Below the pieces are notes generated by a model, which had not been told where the DNA came from, did not search any database, and was given only the letters and a program-made list of their open reading frames with translations. Positions 45,208 to 57,255 of a DNA stretch of 64,000 bases are shown piece by piece (within the stretch, counting starts at the first letter, position 1; the number at the start of each line of letters is the position of its first letter). The stretch lies in NCBI RefSeq assembly GCF_006443685.1, contig NZ_VFYP01000001.1, forward strand, positions 992,001-1,056,000, read 5' to 3'. The stretch comes from Rhizobium glycinendophyticum (GTDB lineage Bacteria > Pseudomonadota > Alphaproteobacteria > Rhizobiales > Rhizobiaceae). The position numbers and the translations under genes were made by a program.

Positions 45208-47514
45208 GTGCCCCTTAACACGCCGACAAGCCAGCCTGGACCTTTACCCGACGCTGCGTCAGAGCCCACGATCGGCAACGCCACGGACGCGCCGCAGCAA
45301 CCGGCATGCATGACAGTCCCATCCTCCGTCCCGTCGAATCGTTCAAATAACCTCGCGGCCTCGCTCTTCTTTGCCCTTATTGCCGGCATGGACGGGCTCA
45401 GCACCAGTATCGCCTTTTCAGCCCTCATCTTCACAGGCTCGCTTGCCGCAGGCTTCGGCATGGGCGTTGGTCTCATTCTGTTGTCCAGCCTCGTGCTGGT
45501 TCTTGCAATGGCCTTGTTCAGCTCCCATCCGGCGAGCATCGGTCAGGTACGCAAACCGAGCGTGGCCATCCTTGCGGCCGCGATCGCCGGGATAACCTCG
45601 ACCATGTCGGACGCCCCGGTCGAGACGAAGATCCTCACCGCTTTTGCCGTCCTGGCGGTGAGTGGCCTCGTCACCGGCATCCTCTTTTGGATCTTCGGCG
45701 CCTTCCGCTTCGGCAGATTGATACGCTTCCTGCCCTATTCGGTTATCGCCGGCTTCCTGGCCGGCTCCGGCGCGCTGATGGTTGAGGGCGCAGTCATGAT
45801 GGTGCTCGGCGAGGGAGGCTTTGCGGGTCTGATCCAGCCTCAAGGTCTTCCGGTAGCGGGCAATCTGATCGTCTCATTTTTGTTTGCCGCAATCCTGCAG
45901 GTGAGCCTGGATCGTCTTTCCCATCCGGCCACCGGCCCCATCGTCATGCTTCTGGGCGGTTTGCTTTTCTACGGGCTTCTCGCAAGCCTCGGGGTGCCGG
46001 TCGAGCAGGCCCGGCTCCTGCACTGGCTTCCGGCCATGCCGACAGCCCAGGGTCTCAACCTGCCGTCGCCGCTCGAAACCCTGTCCGGGGCGGATTGGCT
46101 GGCCGTCGCACAAACCCTTCCAGCCATTGCCTCCGTCGTGCTGCTCAGCATGATCGGCCTTCTGCTCAATACCAGCGGCCTCGAAGTCGCCACACGCCGC
46201 GAGATCGATGCGGACCGGGAAATGCGCACCGCCGGCCTCGCCAATATTGCCGTCGGACTGCTGGGTGGACCGCCCGGCTTTTCCAGCCTGTCGATGACCA
46301 TGCTCGCCAATCGCATGGGCGCGCGCACGCGGTTGGTCGGCCTTGCTACTGCGGCGGTTCTCGTCGTGATGCTGCCCTTCGCCAGCCAGCTTGCCGGCAT
46401 CATGCCGATCTTCATCGCCGCCGGCCTGATGATGACGCTCGGCTTCGAATTGCTGCACGACTGGCTGTGGAAAGCGCGCCGGAAACTATCCGTCAGTGAG
46501 TGGCTGACCGTGCTTGCCATTCCGCTCGGAATGGTCGCTTTCGGCTTCCTCGGCGGCATGGGCCTCGGCCTGGCTTTGTCCGTGGTGACCTTCGTCTACA
46601 ACTACGCCAGCCTCTCCGTCATCCGGGCCGAAACCTCGAACCGCGAACGCCGATCGAGCGTCGACCGCCCGATCGTGGAAAACCAATTGCTCGACCGGGA
46701 GGGCGACCGGGTTCAACTGCTCGAACTGCAGGAGTTCCTCTTTTTCGGGACCGCCGAACATGTGATGGATCGTATCCGCCGGCGCCTGCGCGACCAGGCG
46801 CGGCCGAAACTTGGCCACGTCATCATCGATTTCCGCCGCGTGAGCGGCATGGACGCGGCCGCCGCCGTGACATTCCTCAAGACCCGCAATCTCGTCGCCG
46901 GCAGCGGCGCAGTCCTGGTCCTGTGCGGTTTGTCGACCGAGATCGAAAACACGCTCCGCCGCAACGGTGTGGATCTCGATGACGACCCGGCGGTGTGGCT
47001 GATGGACAACCTCGATCAGGCCCTGGCGCGTTGCGAACAGAGCCTGCTCGAAGCCTTGCCCCGCGAGGAAGCCTGGCAGGATGTCGAGGATTGCCTGGCT
47101 CGGACGATCGGGCCAAACGAGCGGCTTCACGATCTCGTTGCAGTCATGCAGCGCATCGACTTCGCCGCCGGGGATCGGATCATCCGCGCCGGCGAAAGCG
47201 GCGATGATCTATTTCTTCTCTGGAAGGGCCGGGCCAAGATCCAGGCCCGCCTGCCGAATGGCCGGACCTTGCACCTGCGCACGGTGATGCCGGGCGTGGT
47301 GCTGGGCGAAATCGCCCTCTACCGGGAGGGACCGCGCACCGCCGACGTGGTGGCCGAACTGCCCTCCACCGCCTACCGCCTCGCACGCGCAGACCTTCTT
47401 CAGCTGGAACAGTCGGATCCGCAGCTCGCCGTGCTCGTACATCTGCTTTGCGCAACGGCGCTTTCGGAGCGACTGACCATCGTCAACCGCGTGATCCAGG
47501 CGCTGCACGAATGA
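45208..47514 (+). CDS. SulP-type anion transporter with STAS and cyclic-nucleotide-binding domains (copy 1)
   Basis: A 768-residue inner-membrane protein. A polar N-terminus (to about 48) is followed by about ten or more TM helices (about 50-455) of the SulP/SLC26 fold, a STAS domain (about 480-610; VIIDFRRVSGMDAAAAVTFL) and a C-terminal CAP_ED domain (about 640-760). The phosphate-binding cassette reads GEIALYREGPRTADVV with the Glu and Arg that hold the cyclic nucleotide, so binding looks competent. Transported anion (sulfate, bicarbonate or dicarboxylate) is unknown. GTG at 45208 is the only start in the frame before the internal ATG at 45310. A near-copy follows downstream; an adenylate cyclase gene converges on the pair. 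Confidence 0.88.
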   Translation: MPLNTPTSQPGPLPDAASEPTIGNATDAPQQPACMTVPSSVPSNRSNNLAASLFFALIAGMDGLSTSIAFSALIFTGSLAAGFGMGVGLILLSSLVLVLAMALFSSHPASIGQVRKPSVAILAAAIAGITSTMSDAPVETKILTAFAVLAVSGLVTGILFWIFGAFRFGRLIRFLPYSVIAGFLAGSGALMVEGAVMMVLGEGGFAGLIQPQGLPVAGNLIVSFLFAAILQVSLDRLSHPATGPIVMLLGGLLFYGLLASLGVPVEQARLLHWLPAMPTAQGLNLPSPLETLSGADWLAVAQTLPAIASVVLLSMIGLLLNTSGLEVATRREIDADREMRTAGLANIAVGLLGGPPGFSSLSMTMLANRMGARTRLVGLATAAVLVVMLPFASQLAGIMPIFIAAGLMMTLGFELLHDWLWKARRKLSVSEWLTVLAIPLGMVAFGFLGGMGLGLALSVVTFVYNYASLSVIRAETSNRERRSSVDRPIVENQLLDREGDRVQLLELQEFLFFGTAEHVMDRIRRRLRDQARPKLGHVIIDFRRVSGMDAAAAVTFLKTRNLVAGSGAVLVLCGLSTEIENTLRRNGVDLDDDPAVWLMDNLDQALARCEQSLLEALPREEAWQDVEDCLARTIGPNERLHDLVAVMQRIDFAAGDRIIRAGESGDDLFLLWKGRAKIQARLPNGRTLHLRTVMPGVVLGEIALYREGPRTADVVAELPSTAYRLARADLLQLEQSDPQLAVLVHLLCATALSERLTIVNRVIQALHE

Positions 47515-47650
47515 CCTTAACCGCTTGGCGCAAAGGGTTTCCAGCTTCTGCATTCGCAATCGGCCAAGTTTGGGCGGATCGGGGGCAGGCCCGTTGTCGG
47601 GCCACGGGGCCAAGGCTACCAATCCATCGTACTCCTCGCCCCACTGGCGC

Positions 47651-49960
47651 ATGGACCGCCCGCTTGCAGGAATGGCCACGGTGAACGTCAGCACCACCAA
47701 ATTCGAGCCGGAACTTCCCGTCGACGCCCTTGTGCCGGGACCGGACGTCGTGGCGCCCCGTTTCGTTCCGAAGGGACGGCTTGCGACCGCGGCCGCGCCA
47801 TTGCTCTTTGCGGCAATCGCCGGCATCGACGGTCTCGGCACCAGCATCGCCTTCGCTGCCCTCATTTTCACAGGGCCACTGGCCGCAGGCTTCGGCATGG
47901 GTGTCGCGGTCATCCTGCTCTCCTGCGTCGTCATCGCGTTGCTCATCGGTCTGCGCAGCCGCTACCCGTCAAGTGTAGGTCAGGTGCAGGAGGCAAGCAT
48001 CGCCATTCTCGCCACGGCCATTTCCACCGCCATGGCGGCACCGGCGCTCGTCGAGGGCTCGCAGGCCCTTCGGATCGACACCGCCTTTGCCATTCTCGGA
48101 ACCAGCGCGGTCGTGACCGGCGCGATCTTCTGGATCTTCGGCATCTGCCGTTTCGGCAAGCTCGTCCGTTTCATGCCGTTTTCGGTAGTCGCCGGTTTCC
48201 TGGCCGGTTCCGGTTTCTTGCTGATCCAGGGGGCTGTGATGATGATCGTCGGCGATCGCTCTTTGTCCGATCTCCTCATCCAGCCGCTCGGCCACCAGGC
48301 GCTCGCCAACCTCTACATCGCGCTGATCTTCGCCATCGTGCTGACGCTGGCGCTGAAGAATTCCAGCAATCCTGTGACGGCTCCTCTTGTGATGCTGGTG
48401 GGCGCCCTCTTGTTCTATGCCATGCTGGCCTTCATCGGCGTAACCTCCGAAGAGGCACGGCTGATGCAATGGTTGCCATCCATGCCGCCGACCTCCGGTC
48501 TGCATTTGCCGTCGCCGCTCGGCATCGTCTCCGGTGCCGATTGGGGCGTGGTCGCCCAGGCGCTGCCGGCCATTGCCTCGGTGGCGCTGCTCAGCATGGT
48601 CGGCGTGCTGCTCAACACCAGTGGCCTTGAAGTCGCGACCCGCCGGGAGATCGACGCGGATGCCGAACTGCGCATCGCCGGCATTGCCAATCTTCTGGCA
48701 GGCGGTTTGGGTGGTGCCCCCGGTTTCAGCGGCCTCAGCATGACCTTGCTCGCCAACCGCATGGGAGCACACAACCGTTGGGTCGGGATCGCAACCGCCG
48801 TCGTGCTCTTGGTGATGCTGCCCTTTGCCGGCCAACTCGCCGCCGCGATGCCGAATTTCATCGCTGCGGGACTGATGCTGACCCTCGGATTCGAACTAAT
48901 CCATGACTGGCTCTGGGGCGCGCGTCGGCAATTGCCGGTGAGCGAATGGCTCGTTGTTCTCGCCATTCCCGTCGGCATGATTGCCTTCGGCTTCATCGGC
49001 GGCATGGCGCTCGGGCTTGCCCTCTCCATCGTCACCTTCGTCTACAACTATGCCAGCCTCTCTGTCATCCGGGCGGACAGCTCGGGCCGCGAGCGGCGCT
49101 CCAGTGTCGACCGGCCGATCGCAGAAAATGCGGTGCTGGCGCTGGAGGGCGAGCAGGTTCAGGTCCTCGAACTGCAGGAATTCCTCTTCTTCGGCACGGT
49201 CGAGCAGATCATCGGGGCCGTGCGCCGACGGCTCAACGATCGCACGAAGCAATCGCTTCGCTTCGTCATCCTTGATTTCCGCCGTGTCAGCGGCATGGAC
49301 GCCGCCGCCTGCGCCGCCTTCGTGAAGATCCGCAACATGCTGGTGGCAAGCGAGGTGACCTTGCTTGTCTCAGGCATGAACGCCAAGGTGGAGACGGCAC
49401 TGAGGCGCAACGGCCTCGACGTCGTCGATGATCCGAGCGTCCGGGTCGAGCGCGATCTTGACCATGCTCTGGAACGCTGCGAGGAGCGGCTTCTTGCAAG
49501 CCTTCCCCGCGAGGCAAACTGGAACGACGTCGAGGACTATCTCGCCCGCACCATCGGCCCCAATGCACGTCTGCAGGATCTTGTGGCTGCGATGGAAAAA
49601 ATCGAGCTTGAGCCTGGTGATCGGTTTATCCGTGCCGGCGAGGCTGGCGACGATCTTTTCCTGCTGTGGAAGGGGCGCGCCAAGGTCGAGGCCCGCCTGC
49701 CCAATGGCCGTCGCCTGCGGCTGCGCACCGTCACGCCCGGCGTGGTGCTGGGGGAAATCGCGATCTATCGCGGCGGCCCGCGCACGGCCGATGTGGTCGC
49801 CGAAGTGCCCTCGACCGTCTACCGCCTCGTGCGCCAGCAATTGCGCCATATGGAAAAGTCCGATCCGCAACTGGCGCTTCTCGTGCATCGCCTCTGCGCC
49901 ACGACGCTTGCCGAACGCCTCACGATTGCAAATCGCGTGGTTCAGTCGCTGCACGAATAG
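47651..49960 (+). CDS. SulP-type anion transporter with STAS and cyclic-nucleotide-binding domains (copy 2)
   Basis: About 769 residues, co-linear over its whole length with the preceding gene and roughly two-thirds identical by eye (for example LLNTSGLEVATRREIDAD in both). Domains are SulP membrane core, STAS (FVILDFRRVSGMDAAACAAF) and CAP_ED (GEIAIYRGGPRTADVV). The N-termini are unrelated. The start is uncertain: ATG at 47651 or 47672, since neither has a good ribosome binding site and the frame opens at 47525. A 136-bp spacer separates the copies. They may form a heterodimer, as SulP proteins dimerise through membrane and STAS domains. Confidence 0.86.
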   Translation: MDRPLAGMATVNVSTTKFEPELPVDALVPGPDVVAPRFVPKGRLATAAAPLLFAAIAGIDGLGTSIAFAALIFTGPLAAGFGMGVAVILLSCVVIALLIGLRSRYPSSVGQVQEASIAILATAISTAMAAPALVEGSQALRIDTAFAILGTSAVVTGAIFWIFGICRFGKLVRFMPFSVVAGFLAGSGFLLIQGAVMMIVGDRSLSDLLIQPLGHQALANLYIALIFAIVLTLALKNSSNPVTAPLVMLVGALLFYAMLAFIGVTSEEARLMQWLPSMPPTSGLHLPSPLGIVSGADWGVVAQALPAIASVALLSMVGVLLNTSGLEVATRREIDADAELRIAGIANLLAGGLGGAPGFSGLSMTLLANRMGAHNRWVGIATAVVLLVMLPFAGQLAAAMPNFIAAGLMLTLGFELIHDWLWGARRQLPVSEWLVVLAIPVGMIAFGFIGGMALGLALSIVTFVYNYASLSVIRADSSGRERRSSVDRPIAENAVLALEGEQVQVLELQEFLFFGTVEQIIGAVRRRLNDRTKQSLRFVILDFRRVSGMDAAACAAFVKIRNMLVASEVTLLVSGMNAKVETALRRNGLDVVDDPSVRVERDLDHALERCEERLLASLPREANWNDVEDYLARTIGPNARLQDLVAAMEKIELEPGDRFIRAGEAGDDLFLLWKGRAKVEARLPNGRRLRLRTVTPGVVLGEIAIYRGGPRTADVVAEVPSTVYRLVRQQLRHMEKSDPQLALLVHRLCATTLAERLTIANRVVQSLHE

Positions 49961-49992: not shown

Positions 49993-52212
49993 TTACTTGC
50001 TCTTCGCGGTAAACACGCCGTCCCAGTCCCCGGGCGCCGTCTCCGGCAGGGCGGCCAGCCGCTCGCGATAGAGCGCATGCGTGCCAGAGAGCGGGGTCTT
50101 CGGTTCCAGCGCGAACGCCTCGATCATCTGCCGGCAGGTGGCAAAATCTCCGGCCTGCCAGGCATCGATGAAGGCATCGTGCCGAGTCAGAAGCGGCGCC
50201 AGATCGGTGAGAGCCGGATCACCCTCGCGGCCGAGCAGCGTATAGAGACGAACCGCCCCGCGGCGTCCGACGACCCTCACGCGATCGACTTCGGCGAAGA
50301 CGAAGCCCGGTGATCGCCGGCTGACCTCTTCCGTCACCAGGATGGTCACGTCGTACAGCTTGGTCATCCCCTCGACGCGCGAGGCGAGGTTGACGCTGTC
50401 GCCGAGGCAGGAATAGCTGAAGCGCTGGTCTGAACCCAGATTGCCGACGCAGGCCATGCCGGTGTTGAGGCCGATGCCGATCTTCAGCGCCGTGCCGCGC
50501 TCGCGGTTCATTGCCTCGAGCGCCTCGACCATGGCGAGCGCCGAGCCACAGGCTTTGGCCGCATGGTCGGCGATGTCGAGCGGCGCATTCCAGAAGGCCA
50601 TGATCGCATCGCCGATGTATTTGTCGATTGTCGCCTCGCGCTCCAGAAGCACGTCCGTCATCGGCGTCAGGAAGCGGTTGAGCAGGGCCGTCAGTTCGGT
50701 GGGCGTCAGGCTCTCCGACAGAGTCGTAAAGCCGCGGATATCCGAAAACAGGATCGTCAGTTCGCGGTCTTCGCCGCCGAGCTTCAGCCCTTCCGGGTTT
50801 TCCGACAGCCTCTCGACCAGCGTCGGCGACAGATAGCGACCAAAACTTTCGCGCACGAAGCGCTTCTCGCGATGCGTCAGCATCAGGAGCAGGGGAAGGG
50901 CGGTGAGCAGCACCGAGGCAAGCCCGCCGAGCGGCAGCAGAGGATCGAACAGGACCAGCGACTTCGAAAAGGCGAACCACGAGACGGCGCCGATCATGGT
51001 AGACAACAGCACTGCGGAAAGCACCGCCATCGCCGGCGAACCGAGCGCCAGTACCGCGAGCAGCAACAGCCCCGCCACGACCGCCAATCCGCGTTCCGCC
51101 CCGATGATCCAGTCCGGCCGCTGCAGGAAGACGCCGCTGGCGATCTGGTCGATGATCTCCGCATGCACCTTCACGCCCGGCATGGCCGGATCGACGGGTG
51201 TCGCAACGAGATCGCGCAAGCCGACCGCACTGGTGCCGATGAGGAGAATACGGCCTTCGATTTGTGCGGTGAGTGTGGCAGCCTTGGACGGATCGAGCAG
51301 ATCCGCCGCCGAGATGACCGGCATCGCTGGCAGTCCGGAATAATAGATCCACATCTCCCCGCCAGGCCCCACCGGGACCTCCAGCGCGCCGACCCGCAGG
51401 TCCGTCATGGCGAGCCGCCCGCCGCTGGTTGCCGAACGCACGATGAAGGATCCGGCCTGCTGGGCAATGCGCAAGGTCTCGATGGAGAGCGCCGGATAGA
51501 GCTTGCCCTGCGCCGTCGAGACGAGCGGAAAGCTACGGATGATATTGTCGGCAGAGGGCGGGAAGGAGAAATAGCCGATCGCCGAGGCCGCATCGCTGAG
51601 GACCGGCAGGTTGGACAAGGCGCCGGAATAGCCGGAAAGCGACTTGGCCGGGTCTTCGCCCAGAAAGGAAAAACCTGCCTTGGGGGCAGTGACCGGCGCC
51701 TGGGACTCATTGGTGAGCGCAATGCCGAGCGCCACCGCATGGCTGCGTGTCGCCTCGGCAAGCGCAAGGTCCGGATCGGGAAGCGAGGTGGCTGCAATGT
51801 CGAGCGCCACGCCCTGGCGTCGCATGTTTTCGATCAGCCGCGCCGGTGCCGTTCTATCCGGCTCGGAAAACACGATATCGAAGCCGATGGCGGCAGCACC
51901 GAGCGCGCTTGCCTGCGTCACCATGTCAGCCACCACGCTCCGCGACCAGGGCCACTGGCCAAGCTTGGCGATCGACGCCTCGTCGATGTCGATCACCACC
52001 ACAGGCGGATCGGTCGCTTCGCGCGGCTTGATCTGCTGGTAGCTGTCGAAGACGAGCGCGGTCAGGCGAAAGGCCTGATCGGCAAAGACGGCATGAAAGG
52101 TGATGAACCCGGTCAGCGCTGCGGCCCCGATCAGCATCACCCCCAGCCTGCGCCGCTGCGACGACGACAGCCGCCGCAAGCCCGGCCGACCCTGATCCTG
52201 CCGCGCCGCCAC
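49993..52212 (-). CDS. CHASE2-domain adenylate cyclase (class III)
   Basis: A 739-residue inner-membrane receptor cyclase. One TM near residues 24-45, a periplasmic CHASE2 sensor (about 50-365; VVVIDIDEASIAKLGQWPW marks its start), three TM helices (about 375-450) and a cytoplasmic class III cyclase domain (about 485-665). Catalytic residues are complete: metal Asp in FSDIRGFTTLSE and in DKYIGDAIMAFW, purine-selecting Lys of IDKYIGD and Asp of CLGDSVNLASRVE, and the transition-state Asn/Arg of NLASR. Lys/Asp specify ATP, so it makes cAMP. A GTG start lies 8 bases after the FecR-protein stop: last gene of a three-gene operon. Confidence 0.93.
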   Translation of the reverse strand: MAARQDQGRPGLRRLSSSQRRRLGVMLIGAAALTGFITFHAVFADQAFRLTALVFDSYQQIKPREATDPPVVVIDIDEASIAKLGQWPWSRSVVADMVTQASALGAAAIGFDIVFSEPDRTAPARLIENMRRQGVALDIAATSLPDPDLALAEATRSHAVALGIALTNESQAPVTAPKAGFSFLGEDPAKSLSGYSGALSNLPVLSDAASAIGYFSFPPSADNIIRSFPLVSTAQGKLYPALSIETLRIAQQAGSFIVRSATSGGRLAMTDLRVGALEVPVGPGGEMWIYYSGLPAMPVISAADLLDPSKAATLTAQIEGRILLIGTSAVGLRDLVATPVDPAMPGVKVHAEIIDQIASGVFLQRPDWIIGAERGLAVVAGLLLLAVLALGSPAMAVLSAVLLSTMIGAVSWFAFSKSLVLFDPLLPLGGLASVLLTALPLLLMLTHREKRFVRESFGRYLSPTLVERLSENPEGLKLGGEDRELTILFSDIRGFTTLSESLTPTELTALLNRFLTPMTDVLLEREATIDKYIGDAIMAFWNAPLDIADHAAKACGSALAMVEALEAMNRERGTALKIGIGLNTGMACVGNLGSDQRFSYSCLGDSVNLASRVEGMTKLYDVTILVTEEVSRRSPGFVFAEVDRVRVVGRRGAVRLYTLLGREGDPALTDLAPLLTRHDAFIDAWQAGDFATCRQMIEAFALEPKTPLSGTHALYRERLAALPETAPGDWDGVFTAKSK

Positions 52213-52220
52213 AGCCCGCC

Positions 52221-54749
52221 TTACCGGCTGCCGGCGAAGATGCCGGTCGATGACCAGGTGCCGTCTTCAGCTGTGAAGCTGCCCATGATGCCGGCGACCG
52301 GGTCTGTGCCGTTGGAGGCAAACGCGCCGGTGACGCTGGTTGCAATACCGATCATGGACGTACTGGTGAGGCTCGACACCGACGTGTTACCCGACTCGAA
52401 GCTGACTTCCGCACCGAAGGTGTCCTTGTCGTCGTAATTGCTGATTTCGATAGTTCCCGTCCGAGCGCTGAAATCCATCGTCGCGTTGAGATCCCCGGTG
52501 GCGATGTATTGCGATCCATTGTTCACCACAGTGCCTACGGCATTGCCGGTATAGGTGGCGGTGCCGCCTGTTTGATGCACCTGCTCTACCTCCGCATCTG
52601 TCGGCCTCTCCGCGATAATCCAGTTGCCGAGATGAACGGAGCTGGTGCTTTCGGGACCTTCTGCCTGTCCCCACCAGCCCCAGGTCATGAATTCGCAGCT
52701 GGAGCAGATCTCGCTGGTGGTGCTTCCGTCGGTGTTCTTGAAGATTTCCGCCGGCACGACCTCTGAGGATACGATGTAGGAGCCGTCGATTTCGCCAGCA
52801 GCCGCGATCAGTTGATCATTGAGATAGGCCGTCTGCGAGTTGATGGACGACATGTAGACCTCGTTCGTGTCGCCACTGTCCACGCCATCCACGTCGATGG
52901 CGCCGGTAAAGCTGTTTGTCGTCCCGTCGATGTTCCAGGAGACGGTGCCCGAGGCGAGCTCGGTGCTGCCGGAGCTGGTCACCGCGCCGGTCGCGAAGCC
53001 CGTTACCGTCGTGTCGGCAAACGAGCGCGTCCCGTCTGTTTCTGTTGCGGTGTCGTCGCGGCTGACGACATTGGCGCCTGAGTTGAGGTAGGTCCCACCA
53101 AGACCGCCATTTGCTGTGGCGTCGTAGGTCTCCCCGCTGCCGACGATCACCATGTATTCGCCGTCATCGCCGAAGAGCTGGTCGTCGCCTTCACTGCCGC
53201 CGATGGTTTCCGCGGTCGACTGCTCGTTCGTCACGCCCGTATTGGCGTCCGTTACATATCCTCCCGAGCTGAGTGCGGTCAGGCCGTTACCGCCATTTGT
53301 GAGTTCGGCAAACGTGCCGGCTGTAACGTTGATCGCACTCGTCTGGTCGCTGCCCTCGCCGCTGATCGAAAGGGAGGCCTGAATCGCTTTGCCGACGATT
53401 GTATTGCCGGAACTGTCGGTTCCCGATGCTCCGACGACGAGCAAGTCGCTGGAGATTACATCGCTCGTGTCAAGCGCGAGAGCCAGGTCCGGGTTGACAG
53501 CCCCGATCGTGACGGCCCCTGACGCCGGGTCTTCGCTCACCACGTAATGCAGCACATCGGTGCCGTTGAAGGTCGACGCCATGCTCGCACTCTCGCCACC
53601 GACCACGTAGAAGGGCTTGTCGTCCGTCGTCGAGCGCATCAGATAGGCGATGAAATCGCCGCTGCCGGCATAGGCAGAACCCGTCAGGCTGCCGAGCACC
53701 GAGCTTGAGCCCGTAACCGTTGCGCTCGTCAGCGTTTCCGAAGGAGTGATTCCGTCCAGGGAAAAGGTATTGCCGTCGCCATCCGTGCCCGACCACGAGC
53801 CGTCACTCTGCCGGGTCATCTGGCCATAGCCGCTGCTGAGCTCCGCATCGCCCCAATTGTCGACGGTCTCATAAACCACCCCCACAGACCCGTCCCAGCC
53901 ATCTGCCTCCGGTCGCGTCGTGTCGCGTGTTGAGTCTGCCGCAATCTGCTCCGGTGACGTTACCGGCAGCGGCCGTGGCTGCGGAACCGGAATGCTGTTC
54001 TTCGCCGGCGGCTGTTGCGAGTTGTTGTTGGCCACCTGGCTGTTGCGCACGCTGTTATCTGTCGGCAAGGTCTGCGCGCCGCCGGTCTGGCCAGGACGTC
54101 CGGCGAGATATTGCTGCAGGCTGCTCACCCAGAGCGGCGGCGTGCGCTTGACGCTGTTGCCGCCATTGCCGGCTACGATCGAAAAGCCCGGACGGAACAC
54201 GCGCTCGGAACTGCCACGACTGTTGAGCTCCACCTGCTTGCCGAAGACCAGCGAGACATGCGGCGGGATCACCTGGCCATCAGCGGTCTTGCCGTCAAGA
54301 TTGATGTCGACCACGGCGCCACGGATGCCGGCCGTGCCGATCGGGGTATTGATCGTGACGTCGCCGCTCGCCTTCGAGGCCTTGCCGCCGATGAAGCGCA
54401 ATGCGCCCTTGGTCATGGTGGCCGCAAGCGACGCCGTCTGTTTTTCCGGGTCATAGACGAAGCTGTCGATGACGATGGAGGAATTGGGCCCGACGGTAAA
54501 CGAGGTGCCGTCGGCCAGCAGGATCTGCACCAGGCCCTGCGGTCCGGTCTCGATGCGCTGGTTGCGCACCACCGGGTCGCCAAGCGAGATCAGCTTGCGT
54601 TTGCCGCTGGGCTCAAGTGCCGATGCTGTCGGGTTCACCGCTGCGGTGACGCCGGCGACATTGGTTTCCGCATGGCTCAAAGAGGCGCCCGAAACCAACA
54701 TGGAGACAGATGCGGCGAGAAGTGCAGAGCTCGACAGGATGCGGTTCAT
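52221..54749 (-). CDS. Secreted FecR-domain protein with TbpB-like C-terminal barrel
   Basis: An 842-residue exported protein. A signal peptide runs to about residue 28 (SHAET); there is no lipobox. A FecR domain covers about 55-165 (LGDPVVRNQRIETGPQG, then TINTPIGTAGIRGAVVDI). A Gln/Asn/Pro linker (about 225-275) leads to a long Ser/Thr/Gly-rich beta region, then CSSCEFMTWGWWG near 685, and a terminal domain ending SFTAEDGTWSSTGIFAGSR that resembles the handle/barrel end of transferrin-binding protein B and hemophilins. The ATG at 54749 is chosen because AGGAG sits six bases before it; the ATG at 54755 abuts AGGAG. The 9-base gap to the upstream OM protein gene indicates one operon. Confidence 0.82.
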   Translation of the reverse strand: MNRILSSSALLAASVSMLVSGASLSHAETNVAGVTAAVNPTASALEPSGKRKLISLGDPVVRNQRIETGPQGLVQILLADGTSFTVGPNSSIVIDSFVYDPEKQTASLAATMTKGALRFIGGKASKASGDVTINTPIGTAGIRGAVVDINLDGKTADGQVIPPHVSLVFGKQVELNSRGSSERVFRPGFSIVAGNGGNSVKRTPPLWVSSLQQYLAGRPGQTGGAQTLPTDNSVRNSQVANNNSQQPPAKNSIPVPQPRPLPVTSPEQIAADSTRDTTRPEADGWDGSVGVVYETVDNWGDAELSSGYGQMTRQSDGSWSGTDGDGNTFSLDGITPSETLTSATVTGSSSVLGSLTGSAYAGSGDFIAYLMRSTTDDKPFYVVGGESASMASTFNGTDVLHYVVSEDPASGAVTIGAVNPDLALALDTSDVISSDLLVVGASGTDSSGNTIVGKAIQASLSISGEGSDQTSAINVTAGTFAELTNGGNGLTALSSGGYVTDANTGVTNEQSTAETIGGSEGDDQLFGDDGEYMVIVGSGETYDATANGGLGGTYLNSGANVVSRDDTATETDGTRSFADTTVTGFATGAVTSSGSTELASGTVSWNIDGTTNSFTGAIDVDGVDSGDTNEVYMSSINSQTAYLNDQLIAAAGEIDGSYIVSSEVVPAEIFKNTDGSTTSEICSSCEFMTWGWWGQAEGPESTSSVHLGNWIIAERPTDAEVEQVHQTGGTATYTGNAVGTVVNNGSQYIATGDLNATMDFSARTGTIEISNYDDKDTFGAEVSFESGNTSVSSLTSTSMIGIATSVTGAFASNGTDPVAGIMGSFTAEDGTWSSTGIFAGSR

Positions 54750-54758
54750 GGTCATCTC

Positions 54759-56159
54759 CTAGAAGCTCGACTGGATGCCAAAGGACACACTGATGTTGTC
54801 AAAAGTCTTGATGTCGTAGTTTGACCAGACCTTGCGGTAGCCCGCCTCCGCCACCAGTGCCACGTGTTCGTTGAACGGTACGATCTGCCGCAGGTTGACG
54901 CTGAACTCGGTGTCCTGCTGGCTCTCGTTTGCATTGATCATGGCATCCGGAGCGTCATAATTGCGCCGGGAGAGGCCGCTGTCGAGGGCCAATACCCAGG
55001 CCGGACCCTCGCCCACCGGCGAGGCGAAGCGCCAGGCACTGCCAAGGCCGAGACCCACTTCGGTCGACGAAAGATATTCCGCTTCGGCGCTTCGGCGGGT
55101 GGCCAGAAGCCGCGCCGACAGATTGAAATCTTCGGTGACCTGCCGCGAATAGGAAAGCTGGCCGTCGAAGCGGTCGCCGGTCTGGTATTCCGCAGTCTTG
55201 CGCGATTTCGTGTTGTTATAGTCCTCGTAGCGATATTCGACCTGCGCCCCAATACCGTCGCTCGGCGTCACCTGCCAGTTGAACACGGTCGAAGCCCCGA
55301 TTGAGGCGAGATAACGATCGCCCTCGATCAGAACGCCGCTCGAGAGGAGGAATACCGAGAGCGAGCGGTCGTCGAGGCCGAAGCGGGCCAGATCGAAGGT
55401 CGGCCCGACAAAGGCTTCGAGCGCGCCCGTATTGAGCGTGTCGCGGTCCCGGTAGCCGGCGGTATAGCCGGAAAGCCCGGCTTCGATGGCAATCCCCTGT
55501 TCGTCAAGTTCGTGGCGATAGCGCACCGAACTGGTGAGGAATGCATTGAAGTCTTCACCCGCGACAGTCAGGCTGTCGAGCGTATAAGGTAGGCCATTCA
55601 GCGTCACGGTGGAATTGCCGGGACCGGCATTGGCATTGCTCTGATAGCGGATGCCGGCCCGCACCATGCCGGTCAACGAGTTTGGCGCTGCCCGCTTGTC
55701 GATCGCCGCGAGATATTCCTCGACCTTGGCCGCCACCTCCGGCGGCACATTGCCGGCAGACTGCGCGCCTTCGAAGTATTGCCGCGCGGTTTCATAGGCC
55801 CCGAGCCGGTAATAGAGCACACCGAGTTCCAGCTGCAGGCGCGGCAGGCCGGGGGCATAGATCAGCATCCGCTCCAATGTCGACACGGCACCTTCGAGGT
55901 CGCCTGCCTGCGATGACAAAGCTGCATATTGAAACGCCGTATCCAGATCGTCCGGCTGCGCCATCATCCGGGCGAACAGCGTCTTGCGTTCGGCCTCGAT
56001 CGCCTCCAGGGACTGCCCCGCAGGGCGCGGCACGACGTTCTGGGAAGACTGGGCAAGGGCATCAACAGCGCAGAACGACAAGCTGCACGCGACCAGCATG
56101 CCGCTTATGGGGAGTGCCGGAAAAAAGAGCTTGCTGAAACTACGGGATGAGAAAATCAT
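54759..56159 (-). CDS. Slam-like TPR / beta-barrel outer-membrane protein
   Basis: A 466-residue protein. A signal peptide ends near residue 36 (VDALA). A TPR-type helical part (about 50-165; LDTAFQYAALSSQAGDLEGAV and YYRLGAYETARQYFEGAQ) is followed by an outer-membrane barrel (about 170-466) starting GIRYQSNANAGPG and ending in a terminal Phe (VSFGIQSSF). This order, TPR then about 14 strands (DUF560), is that of Slam, which moves TbpB-like lipoproteins and hemophilins across the outer membrane. The next gene encodes a protein with a TbpB-like tail, the expected kind of cargo. It is the first gene of the operon. Confidence 0.78.
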   Translation of the reverse strand: MIFSSRSFSKLFFPALPISGMLVACSLSFCAVDALAQSSQNVVPRPAGQSLEAIEAERKTLFARMMAQPDDLDTAFQYAALSSQAGDLEGAVSTLERMLIYAPGLPRLQLELGVLYYRLGAYETARQYFEGAQSAGNVPPEVAAKVEEYLAAIDKRAAPNSLTGMVRAGIRYQSNANAGPGNSTVTLNGLPYTLDSLTVAGEDFNAFLTSSVRYRHELDEQGIAIEAGLSGYTAGYRDRDTLNTGALEAFVGPTFDLARFGLDDRSLSVFLLSSGVLIEGDRYLASIGASTVFNWQVTPSDGIGAQVEYRYEDYNNTKSRKTAEYQTGDRFDGQLSYSRQVTEDFNLSARLLATRRSAEAEYLSSTEVGLGLGSAWRFASPVGEGPAWVLALDSGLSRRNYDAPDAMINANESQQDTEFSVNLRQIVPFNEHVALVAEAGYRKVWSNYDIKTFDNISVSFGIQSSF

Positions 56160-56511
56160 GACGGCAACTCTTTACAGCGGACGGATGAAAGGCATTTACG
56201 ATGAGTTGAACCTAAGTATGAAGCAGAGAAACGAGCCCTCAACGGCCAAGTTTGGGGCCTTCCCCGCCGAAAACACGCCTGCGTCACATCTGTAAAGCTG
56301 CAGTGCAGCAAGGGCAAGAGCCGGTCACGCGCCGTCGCATGTTGCCTGGGTCGCTCCCGGCACCTCGGTCAAGACCCGGATTGGGCGCGCGTTCTGTGCA
56401 AAAAGGTCACGGAACTTTGATTTTTCTCCTCGGTCCCCGCCTTGTTTGCCGCAATCTGGCGTTATAACGGTTGAGCCCAGAATAAACGTCATTCCAACAG
56501 GTAAGAGACCG
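56160..56511. promoter_or_regulatory. Divergent intergenic region Slam-like gene / dsbA with PhaR-type palindrome
   Basis: A 352-bp spacer that must hold the promoters of the Slam-FecR-cyclase operon (minus) and of dsbA (plus). At 56297-56309 it contains GCTGCAGTGCAGC, the exact reverse complement of the palindrome upstream of the SulP genes. A TTTGATTTTTCTCC stretch near 56415 and TATAAC near 56463 are AT-rich promoter-like patches for dsbA. No RNA gene or small ORF was recognised. Confidence 0.5.
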
Positions 56512-57255
56512 ATGTCGATGTCTGAACTCACGATCACCAAGCGCCGCCTGCTGAGCGGCATCGCCATGGCCGGCGCCGTCGCCGCCCTGTCGGCCTGCAG
56601 CGAGGAAAAGTCGGCGAGCGCCGAACAGCCGGTGCCGGCGGTCAGCAACGAGACGACGGCCTCGACCACCTCGGCGGAAATGCCGAAGTCCGATCGCGAT
56701 GTCGACATGGAAGCCGCCCTGAAGCCTGGCCCGCTCAAGGAAATGGCGCTCGGCGATCCCAATGCGCCGGTGAAGATCATCGAATACATGTCGATGACCT
56801 GCCCGCACTGCGCCCACTTCCACGAAACGACCTTCGACGCGATCAAGACCAAGTATGTCGACAGCGGCAAGGCCTACTTCGTGCTGCGCGAATTCCCCTT
56901 CCCGCAGGACACGGCATCGCTCGCAGCCTTCATGCTGGCGCGTTGCACGACCGAAGACAAGTTCTTCCCCTTCGTCGGCATGTTCCTGAAGCAGCAGCGC
57001 GCCTGGGCGGCCCCTGATAACGGTGATGTCCGCGCCGCCATGCTGCAACTGTCGAAACTCGGCGGTTTTACACAGGAGACCTTCGACGCGTGCTTGACGA
57101 ACGCGAAGCTTGCCGGTGATGTGACGGCAGTCCGCGACCGCGGTGCACAGGAATTCGGCGTCAATTCGACGCCAACCTTCCTGATCAATGGCAAGGCCTA
57201 TTCGGGGGACATGTCGGTTGACTCCATGTCGGCCCTCATCGACAGCCTGCTCTGA
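56512..57255 (+). CDS. DsbA-family thiol-disulfide oxidoreductase
   Basis: A 247-residue exported thioredoxin-fold protein. A basic, hydrophobic signal (KRRLLSGIAMAGAVAALSAC) ends in a possible lipobox LSAC, so it may be a lipoprotein. The active site is CPHC (YMSMTCPHCAHFHETTFD) and the cis-Pro is in NSTPTFLING. It belongs to the DsbA/BdbD-like group that oxidises cysteines in the envelope. ATG at 56512 or 56518. In rhizobia it normally sits between dciA and smc. Confidence 0.9.
   Translation: MSMSELTITKRRLLSGIAMAGAVAALSACSEEKSASAEQPVPAVSNETTASTTSAEMPKSDRDVDMEAALKPGPLKEMALGDPNAPVKIIEYMSMTCPHCAHFHETTFDAIKTKYVDSGKAYFVLREFPFPQDTASLAAFMLARCTTEDKFFPFVGMFLKQQRAWAAPDNGDVRAAMLQLSKLGGFTQETFDACLTNAKLAGDVTAVRDRGAQEFGVNSTPTFLINGKAYSGDMSVDSMSALIDSLL

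Follow-up and report, generated by a model that had tools for sequence, protein, structure and literature searches.

A Slam-type barrel protein, a FecR protein with a TbpB-like tail and a CHASE2 cyclase in Rhizobium glycinendophyticum: a candidate trans-envelope signaling unit

In this report, we mainly focus on three minus-strand genes at positions 49993–56159 of a 64,000-nucleotide window of the Rhizobium glycinendophyticum genome (assembly GCF_006443685.1, contig NZ_VFYP01000001.1, positions 992,001–1,056,000), which encode an outer-membrane barrel protein related to the Slam exporters of type 11 secretion, a FecR-domain protein ending in a fold of the kind found in Slam clients, and a CHASE2 class III adenylate cyclase predicted to make cyclic AMP (cAMP). 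Together with a conserved gene neighborhood and a recurring FecR–CHASE2 pairing, these features lead us to propose, at about even chances, a three-part trans-envelope signaling unit in which the Slam-type barrel would export the FecR protein and CHASE2 would read its FecR domain, a split form of the NsrA–CyaK design. The NsrA–CyaK relay and related CHASE2-cyclase clusters are already known, whereas a Slam-type barrel and a client-like head within a FecR–CHASE2 relay are new, as are neighbors with cyclic nucleotide monophosphate (cNMP)-binding domains, including two SulP transporters, as candidate cAMP targets.

To our knowledge, the route by which outside signals reach inner-membrane CHASE2 cyclases is poorly known, and we know of no type 11 secretion system with a second-messenger output. 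The operon links type 11 secretion with signaling and offers a possible reason for the frequent proximity of FecR and CHASE2 genes. Being compact (exporter-like barrel, client-like head, FecR coupling domain, cyclase), it also makes the outer-membrane step directly testable.

Organization of the three-gene unit

The genes form a tight unit, with the following features:

54759..56159, minus strand: first gene, TPR and 14-strand outer-membrane barrel protein of 466 amino acids, distantly related to Slam/SlipAM, with a signal peptide assigned by inspection only
55689..56009, minus strand: TPR helices, residues 51–157
54762..55682, minus strand: 14-strand barrel, residues 160–466, with an OmpG/CymA-like fold and a SlipAM-like sequence profile
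52221..54749, minus strand: second gene, FecR–TbpB-like protein of 842 amino acids when read from the better start, or 844 when read from the ATG at 54755, from which residues are numbered
54144..54659, minus strand: FecR domain, residues 33–204, with the fold of FecR/PupR anti-sigma periplasmic domains (profile and structure)
53892..54098, minus strand: proline-rich linker, residues 220–288, mostly of low confidence (disordered) in the model
52851..53888, minus strand: central beta-rich part, residues 290–635, resembling the TbpB N-lobe only within a long, loose alignment to whole TbpB
52224..52838, minus strand: TbpB C-lobe-like handle and 8-strand barrel, residues 640–844, with CxxC at 684/687 and WGWW at 692–695
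49993..52212, minus strand: third gene, CHASE2 class III adenylate cyclase of 739 amino acids, GTG start
51055..52092, minus strand: CHASE2 sensor domain, residues 41–386
50233..50763, minus strand: cyclase catalytic domain, residues 484–660

For the second gene, both its AGGAG and the database protein favor the start at 54749. A promoter scan returned three sites against 1.2 expected, none of them directly upstream of the first gene, and a terminator scan four against 4.8 expected.

The barrel protein is a distant Slam relative

Slam proteins are defined by an N-terminal TPR region followed by a 14-strand barrel (PMC5449769). The AlphaFold model of the first gene product has this layout, with 14 long strands after the TPR part, and VIA-align ranks the 14-strand barrels OmpG and CymA first. 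At the level of the family, PF04575 matched 11 of 81 members at E ≤ 0.01, and hhalign of the barrel family against PF04575 members gave 99.7% over the barrel, with a reversed control at 0.2%. In the other direction, 14 PF04575 matches were sampled from the class, 13 of them above the Pfam cut-off, and the barrel-family profile recovered 10 of these 14. The window's barrel is a distant but clear relative of Slam (SlipAM/DUF560, type 11 secretion), which bears out the Slam layout proposed by the first-pass annotation, a reading made from the letters of the window. No Slam structure was among the 50 rows listed each by Foldseek and VIA-align, an absence that is uninformative.

The FecR protein ends in a client-type fold, and the cyclase is of class III

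An N-terminal FecR domain had been predicted in the second gene product, and it is recognized both by PF04773 and by its fold. By inspection, the domain comes after a putative signal peptide and the operon contains no sigma gene, which sets the protein apart from anti-sigma factors. Type 11 clients have a signal peptide and, in many cases, a lipobox; in this protein, inspection suggested the former and revealed no lipobox cysteine. The tail, first described as TbpB/hemophilin-like, proved by profile and structure comparison to have a fold of the TbpB, fHbp and NHBA type, with a C-terminal 8-strand barrel as in type 11 clients. Its profile (65 rows) reached NHBA, a Slam client, at E 1.7e-6. TbpB and fHbp are Slam clients as well (PMC12282271, PMC5449769). 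The tail profile also finds open reading frames adjoining 4 of the 14 sampled PF04575 matches, one of which carries FecR too. Within the linker, N245, S246, N253, P256, P258, P260 and P262 are invariant in 32 close homologs and not in the wider family.

The third gene product combines CHASE2 with a Guanylate_cyc domain that carries the catalytic motifs of a class III adenylate cyclase, as originally annotated.

Three observations on the FecR protein stand apart from this assignment. Residues 29–102 (54450–54671) resemble the cell-surface anchoring domain of an adhesin, 5ix9 (root-mean-square deviation 1.1 over 64 columns, Foldseek E 2.1e-3), and by profile 5ix9 matches the start of the FecR domain at E 5.4e-7, or 0.0062 in a repeat with the 32 close rows, which hints at a possible common origin of FecR domains and adhesin anchors. 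The CxxC is invariant in the 32 close homologs; a divergent DsbA-like thioredoxin gene lies at 56446–57255 and is found in 16 of 17 loci of the window's close relatives (L122–L138). A PRP motif considered as common to the FecR protein and the N-terminus of the barrel protein was dropped: 37 of 67 FecR-tail frames contain PRP at any position, and 2 of 80 barrel frames contain P[RKQ]P within their first 130 residues.

Conservation of the neighborhood

The best 80 of 269 named barrel loci were counted, and cyclases were sought within at most 10 kb on either side of the barrel gene (less at contig ends). The conserved co-occurrence anticipated by the first-pass annotation was found: FecR is adjacent in 73 of the 80 loci, FecR and the TbpB-like tail share a single frame in 67, and a CHASE2 cyclase lies within the flank in 40, in 35 of them co-directional and downstream. 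In 67/80 loci, the FecR-tail frame shares the strand of the barrel gene and begins within 2 kb of the end of that gene, and 60 of 67 loci have a proline-rich stretch after the FecR domain. Among the seven loci that lack an adjacent FecR gene, five have a short one about 2 kb upstream. The 11 same-genus loci retrieved at 16 kb all keep the order barrel, FecR-tail protein, cyclase. The barrel family occurs in 33 of 150 genomes of an order sample, and Paracoccus aminophilus, from another order, has the same gene order and domains (tail E 3.8e-40 and CHASE2 E 1.4e-144 with local profiles). In a class-level relative (L213:7107–13445), the order is again the same: the barrel is PF04575-positive (E 8e-14), the FecR protein has a TbpB_B_D match below the cut-off, and a CHASE2 cyclase follows. 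The outcomes named at the outset as counting against the annotation, namely a tail or barrel without structural likeness or a lack of conserved co-occurrence, did not come about.

The pairing of FecR with CHASE2 was followed in a sample of 60 CHASE2 loci (48 cyclase-type, 12 other), which over-represents strong matches and includes some genomes more than once because it consists of alternate rows from about the first 119 matches listed. A FecR gene lies within 3 kb of at least 34 of the 48 cyclase-type and at least 4 of the 12 other CHASE2 genes, these counts being lower bounds because the local model missed a separately listed FecR gene in the L271 stretch. A barrel match within 6 kb accompanies 13/48 cyclase-type genes versus 0/12 others, and a TbpB-like tail 3/48 versus 0/12. 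The second CHASE2 gene of the R. glycinendophyticum genome adjoins a FecR gene as well. FecR is the pivot of these units.

These counts bear on a simpler explanation, in which barrel and FecR protein are a plain type 11 secretion pair, the FecR protein being an exported binding protein (for heme or a metal, for example) with which the cyclase merely shares an operon. The 40 loci without a cyclase in the flank would suit it, as would L081, L083 and L087, where two FecR-tail genes and another FecR gene or fragments come after a single barrel gene, as though several partners shared that barrel. Against it, FecR–CHASE2 pairing recurs without the barrel (FecR at no fewer than 34 cyclase genes, the barrel at 13) and in other groups, and the surrounding frames, judged by inspection and without a profile, revealed no TonB receptor. 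We consider a plain secretion pair improbable.

Relation to known systems

The FecA–FecR and PupB–PupR systems have a sigma-factor output and a TonB-dependent receptor, whereas the window's unit has a cyclase and a Slam-type barrel. Its nearest counterpart in layout is NsrA–CyaK of Sinorhizobium meliloti, a receptor for a plant signal known from root-nodule bacteria; cyaK lies directly after nsrA on pSymB, and Pfam recognizes FecR and TPR in NsrA and CHASE2 and a cyclase domain in CyaK. The NsrA barrel has been placed at 600–1200 (PMC7529298), and conversion of an outside protein signal to cAMP is reported to need both NsrA and CyaK (PMC7529298, PMC13001267). Five further FecR frames of 1225–1324 residues, selected for length and closeness to CHASE2, stand beside CHASE2 cyclases; Pfam, run on three of them, finds FecR and TPR, and one of the five is 55% identical to the nsrA product over 99%. 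Both NsrA–CyaK and the window's unit comprise FecR, TPR, an outer-membrane barrel and an adjacent CHASE2 cyclase. In NsrA, however, FecR, TPR and barrel form one chain without TbpB-like lobes by Pfam, while the window divides them between two chains, its barrel has no profile match to that of NsrA, and its FecR protein carries a TbpB-like C-lobe. The unit is thus like NsrA–CyaK in layout, yet not an NsrA. Homology between the two barrels was considered and found unsupported (0.2% by profile).

With type 11 secretion (Slam, SlipAM/DUF560), the unit shares a TPR and 14-strand barrel protein beside a client-like protein with a C-terminal 8-strand barrel; it differs in the N-terminal FecR domain of that client-like protein, in its missing lipobox (by inspection) and in the cyclase of the operon. 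Neither FecR nor a cyclase appears in the main text of a survey of type 11 cargo (PMC12282271). Other relatives are more partial. A Campylobacterota cluster comprises a CHASE2 cyclase, a FecR-domain outer-membrane protein, a TPR protein and, unlike the window, a phosphodiesterase, and the available text describes no Slam or TbpB-like part (PMC9239204). In magnetotactic bacteria, the gene for the secreted TPR-fold protein MtxA is followed by a CHASE2 adenylate cyclase gene and a periplasmic signaling role has been proposed; in contrast to the window, no barrel is described and the word FecR is absent from the text available (PMC4439547). A Burkholderia operon joins a FecR–LysM protein to a CHASE2 histidine kinase and, as far as the available text goes, differs from the window in its kinase output, in having no barrel in the operon and in carrying LysM instead of TbpB-like lobes (PMC5192318).

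The first-pass statement that no system of this composition had been described therefore has to be corrected, NsrA–CyaK and the Campylobacterota cluster (PMC9239204) being precedents. In a literature search to which most subscription papers were inaccessible, 'surface lipoprotein assembly modifier' never occurred with CHASE2, nor DUF560 with FecR; papers containing both 'slam' and 'fecr', judged by title, held no such system; and the available portions of papers on FecR with CHASE2, or on CHASE2 with a beta-barrel and a cyclase, described no Slam-type barrel.

Proposed mechanism and alternatives

The computed results establish the domain composition, the folds, the relationship to Slam and its clients, the conservation of the neighborhood and the recurrence of FecR–CHASE2 pairs. 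As to topology, retention of the FecR domain, its contact with CHASE2, the direction of the signal and the cAMP targets, we infer the following scheme. The Slam-type barrel would be embedded in the outer membrane, its TPR part lying in the periplasm; it would take the FecR protein by its TbpB-like C-lobe and put the lobes on the cell surface. The FecR domain would remain periplasmic, tethered to the lobes by the proline-rich linker, and serve as the coupling piece. The CHASE2 domain of the cyclase in the inner membrane may sense the presence, absence or movement of this piece, leading to cAMP. The cAMP might then act through CRP-type regulators and perhaps through the neighboring cNMP-binding SulP transporters. 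The original suggestion that the cyclase is informed of the FecR protein's surface state is plausible.

Several results weigh against this scheme. The window's barrel protein alone has no match to PF04575 (Pfam at E ≤ 1, and a PF04575 search of its own genome omits the gene) and none to Slam in NCBIfam, which is why the family-level tests were needed. The TbpB-tail model includes P0102, itself FecR plus PF01298; when the PDB test was repeated with the 32 close rows and P0102 left out, NHBA was reached at E 0.0011 and fHbp at 0.04–0.1, and TbpB was absent at E ≤ 0.1. The unit is patchy: the barrel occurs in 12 of 35 same-genus genomes. Half of the 80 barrel loci have no CHASE2 cyclase within the flank. 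By profile, the NsrA barrel does not resemble Slam (0.2%); NsrA therefore speaks for the design and not for the export step. Related barrel–FecR–CHASE2 triads exist (L035, L036, L090, L091, L092 and L098, with barrel-part matches at E 1.8e-7 or better) whose FecR proteins give no tail-profile match at E ≤ 10, a silence that is no proof of absence because HMMER filters can drop weak matches. Only 3 of 13 sampled cyclase loci with a barrel match have the tail, and of the other 10 only five match the barrel part at E < 1e-4.

The idea of export by the tail is weakened accordingly. The tail fits Slam clients; the FecR partners of related barrels often lack it, and therefore tail-directed export can account for no more than part of what the barrel family does, nor does the link between barrel and FecR rest on client export alone.

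The same triads favor a second explanation, in which the barrel is a receptor and not an exporter, sensing the outside and relaying the signal by way of its TPR part, first to a FecR protein in the periplasm and then to CHASE2, with the TbpB-like lobes as an added ligand-binding piece. NsrA does the same in one chain with CyaK, and the Campylobacterota cluster (PMC9239204) offers a comparable set of parts. On the other side, the tail of the window's lineage has a Slam-client fold and is kept in 67/80 loci, and the barrel groups with the exporter family and not with that of NsrA. We regard a receptor without export as unlikely; the tail-less triads and the 40 loci without a cyclase keep it alive.

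An operon that combines an exporter-like barrel and its client-like neighbor with a cyclase bearing a periplasmic sensor could also serve as a monitor of export quality, the cyclase reporting stalled or failed export of the FecR protein instead of an outside ligand. Triads with a tail-less FecR protein would have nothing to export in that way, and we think this very improbable.

Neighbors with cNMP-binding domains

Beyond the first-pass annotation, two tandem SulP-STAS transporter genes with cNMP-binding domains lie beside the cyclase gene, both domains containing GEIA...PRTA:

47525..49960, plus strand: SulP-STAS transporter, C-terminal cNMP-binding domain at 49601–49852, convergent with the cyclase gene; candidate cAMP target
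45208..47514, plus strand: second SulP-STAS transporter, cNMP-binding domain at 47158–47415; candidate cAMP target

A SulP gene with a cNMP-binding domain is found near 22 of the 80 barrel loci. Genes with a cNMP-binding domain of any kind lie near 23 of the 40 loci with a cyclase versus none of the 40 without (Fisher p 2.6e-9), or, when L122–L138 are left out, near 10/24 versus 0/39 (p 1.5e-5). Of the 80 loci, 69 span at least 15 kb, and a tree of these 69 shows five changes of the cyclase and three of the cNMP gene, too few for significance; the association is thus strong in raw counts, and its independence from descent is not established on the tree. In the CHASE2 sample, such a gene stands at 12 of 48 cyclase loci versus 1 of 12 others. 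With 13 cNMP-binding and four class III cyclase matches genome-wide, the SulP–cyclase neighborhood in the window's own genome could be due to chance.

Extended to these neighbors, the export scheme becomes a type 11 pair turned receptor, in which the barrel would display its own signaling client with a tethered periplasmic FecR plug, and the CHASE2 cyclase would read the plug and control the neighboring cNMP-binding transporters; we put this forward tentatively, as falling somewhat short of even chances.

Other cNMP-domain neighbors include a SpoIIE phosphatase (L150) and a patatin (Paracoccus). At L198:5868–9718, the SulP-cNMP gene is separated from the barrel gene by genes for a peptidase C39 ABC transporter and for another ABC protein, and frames of similar size occur in L144, L147 and L152. 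Beside NsrA-like units, Na/H exchangers with a cNMP-binding domain (L205:9276–11813 and L206:9764–12001) are convergent to the CHASE2 cyclases.

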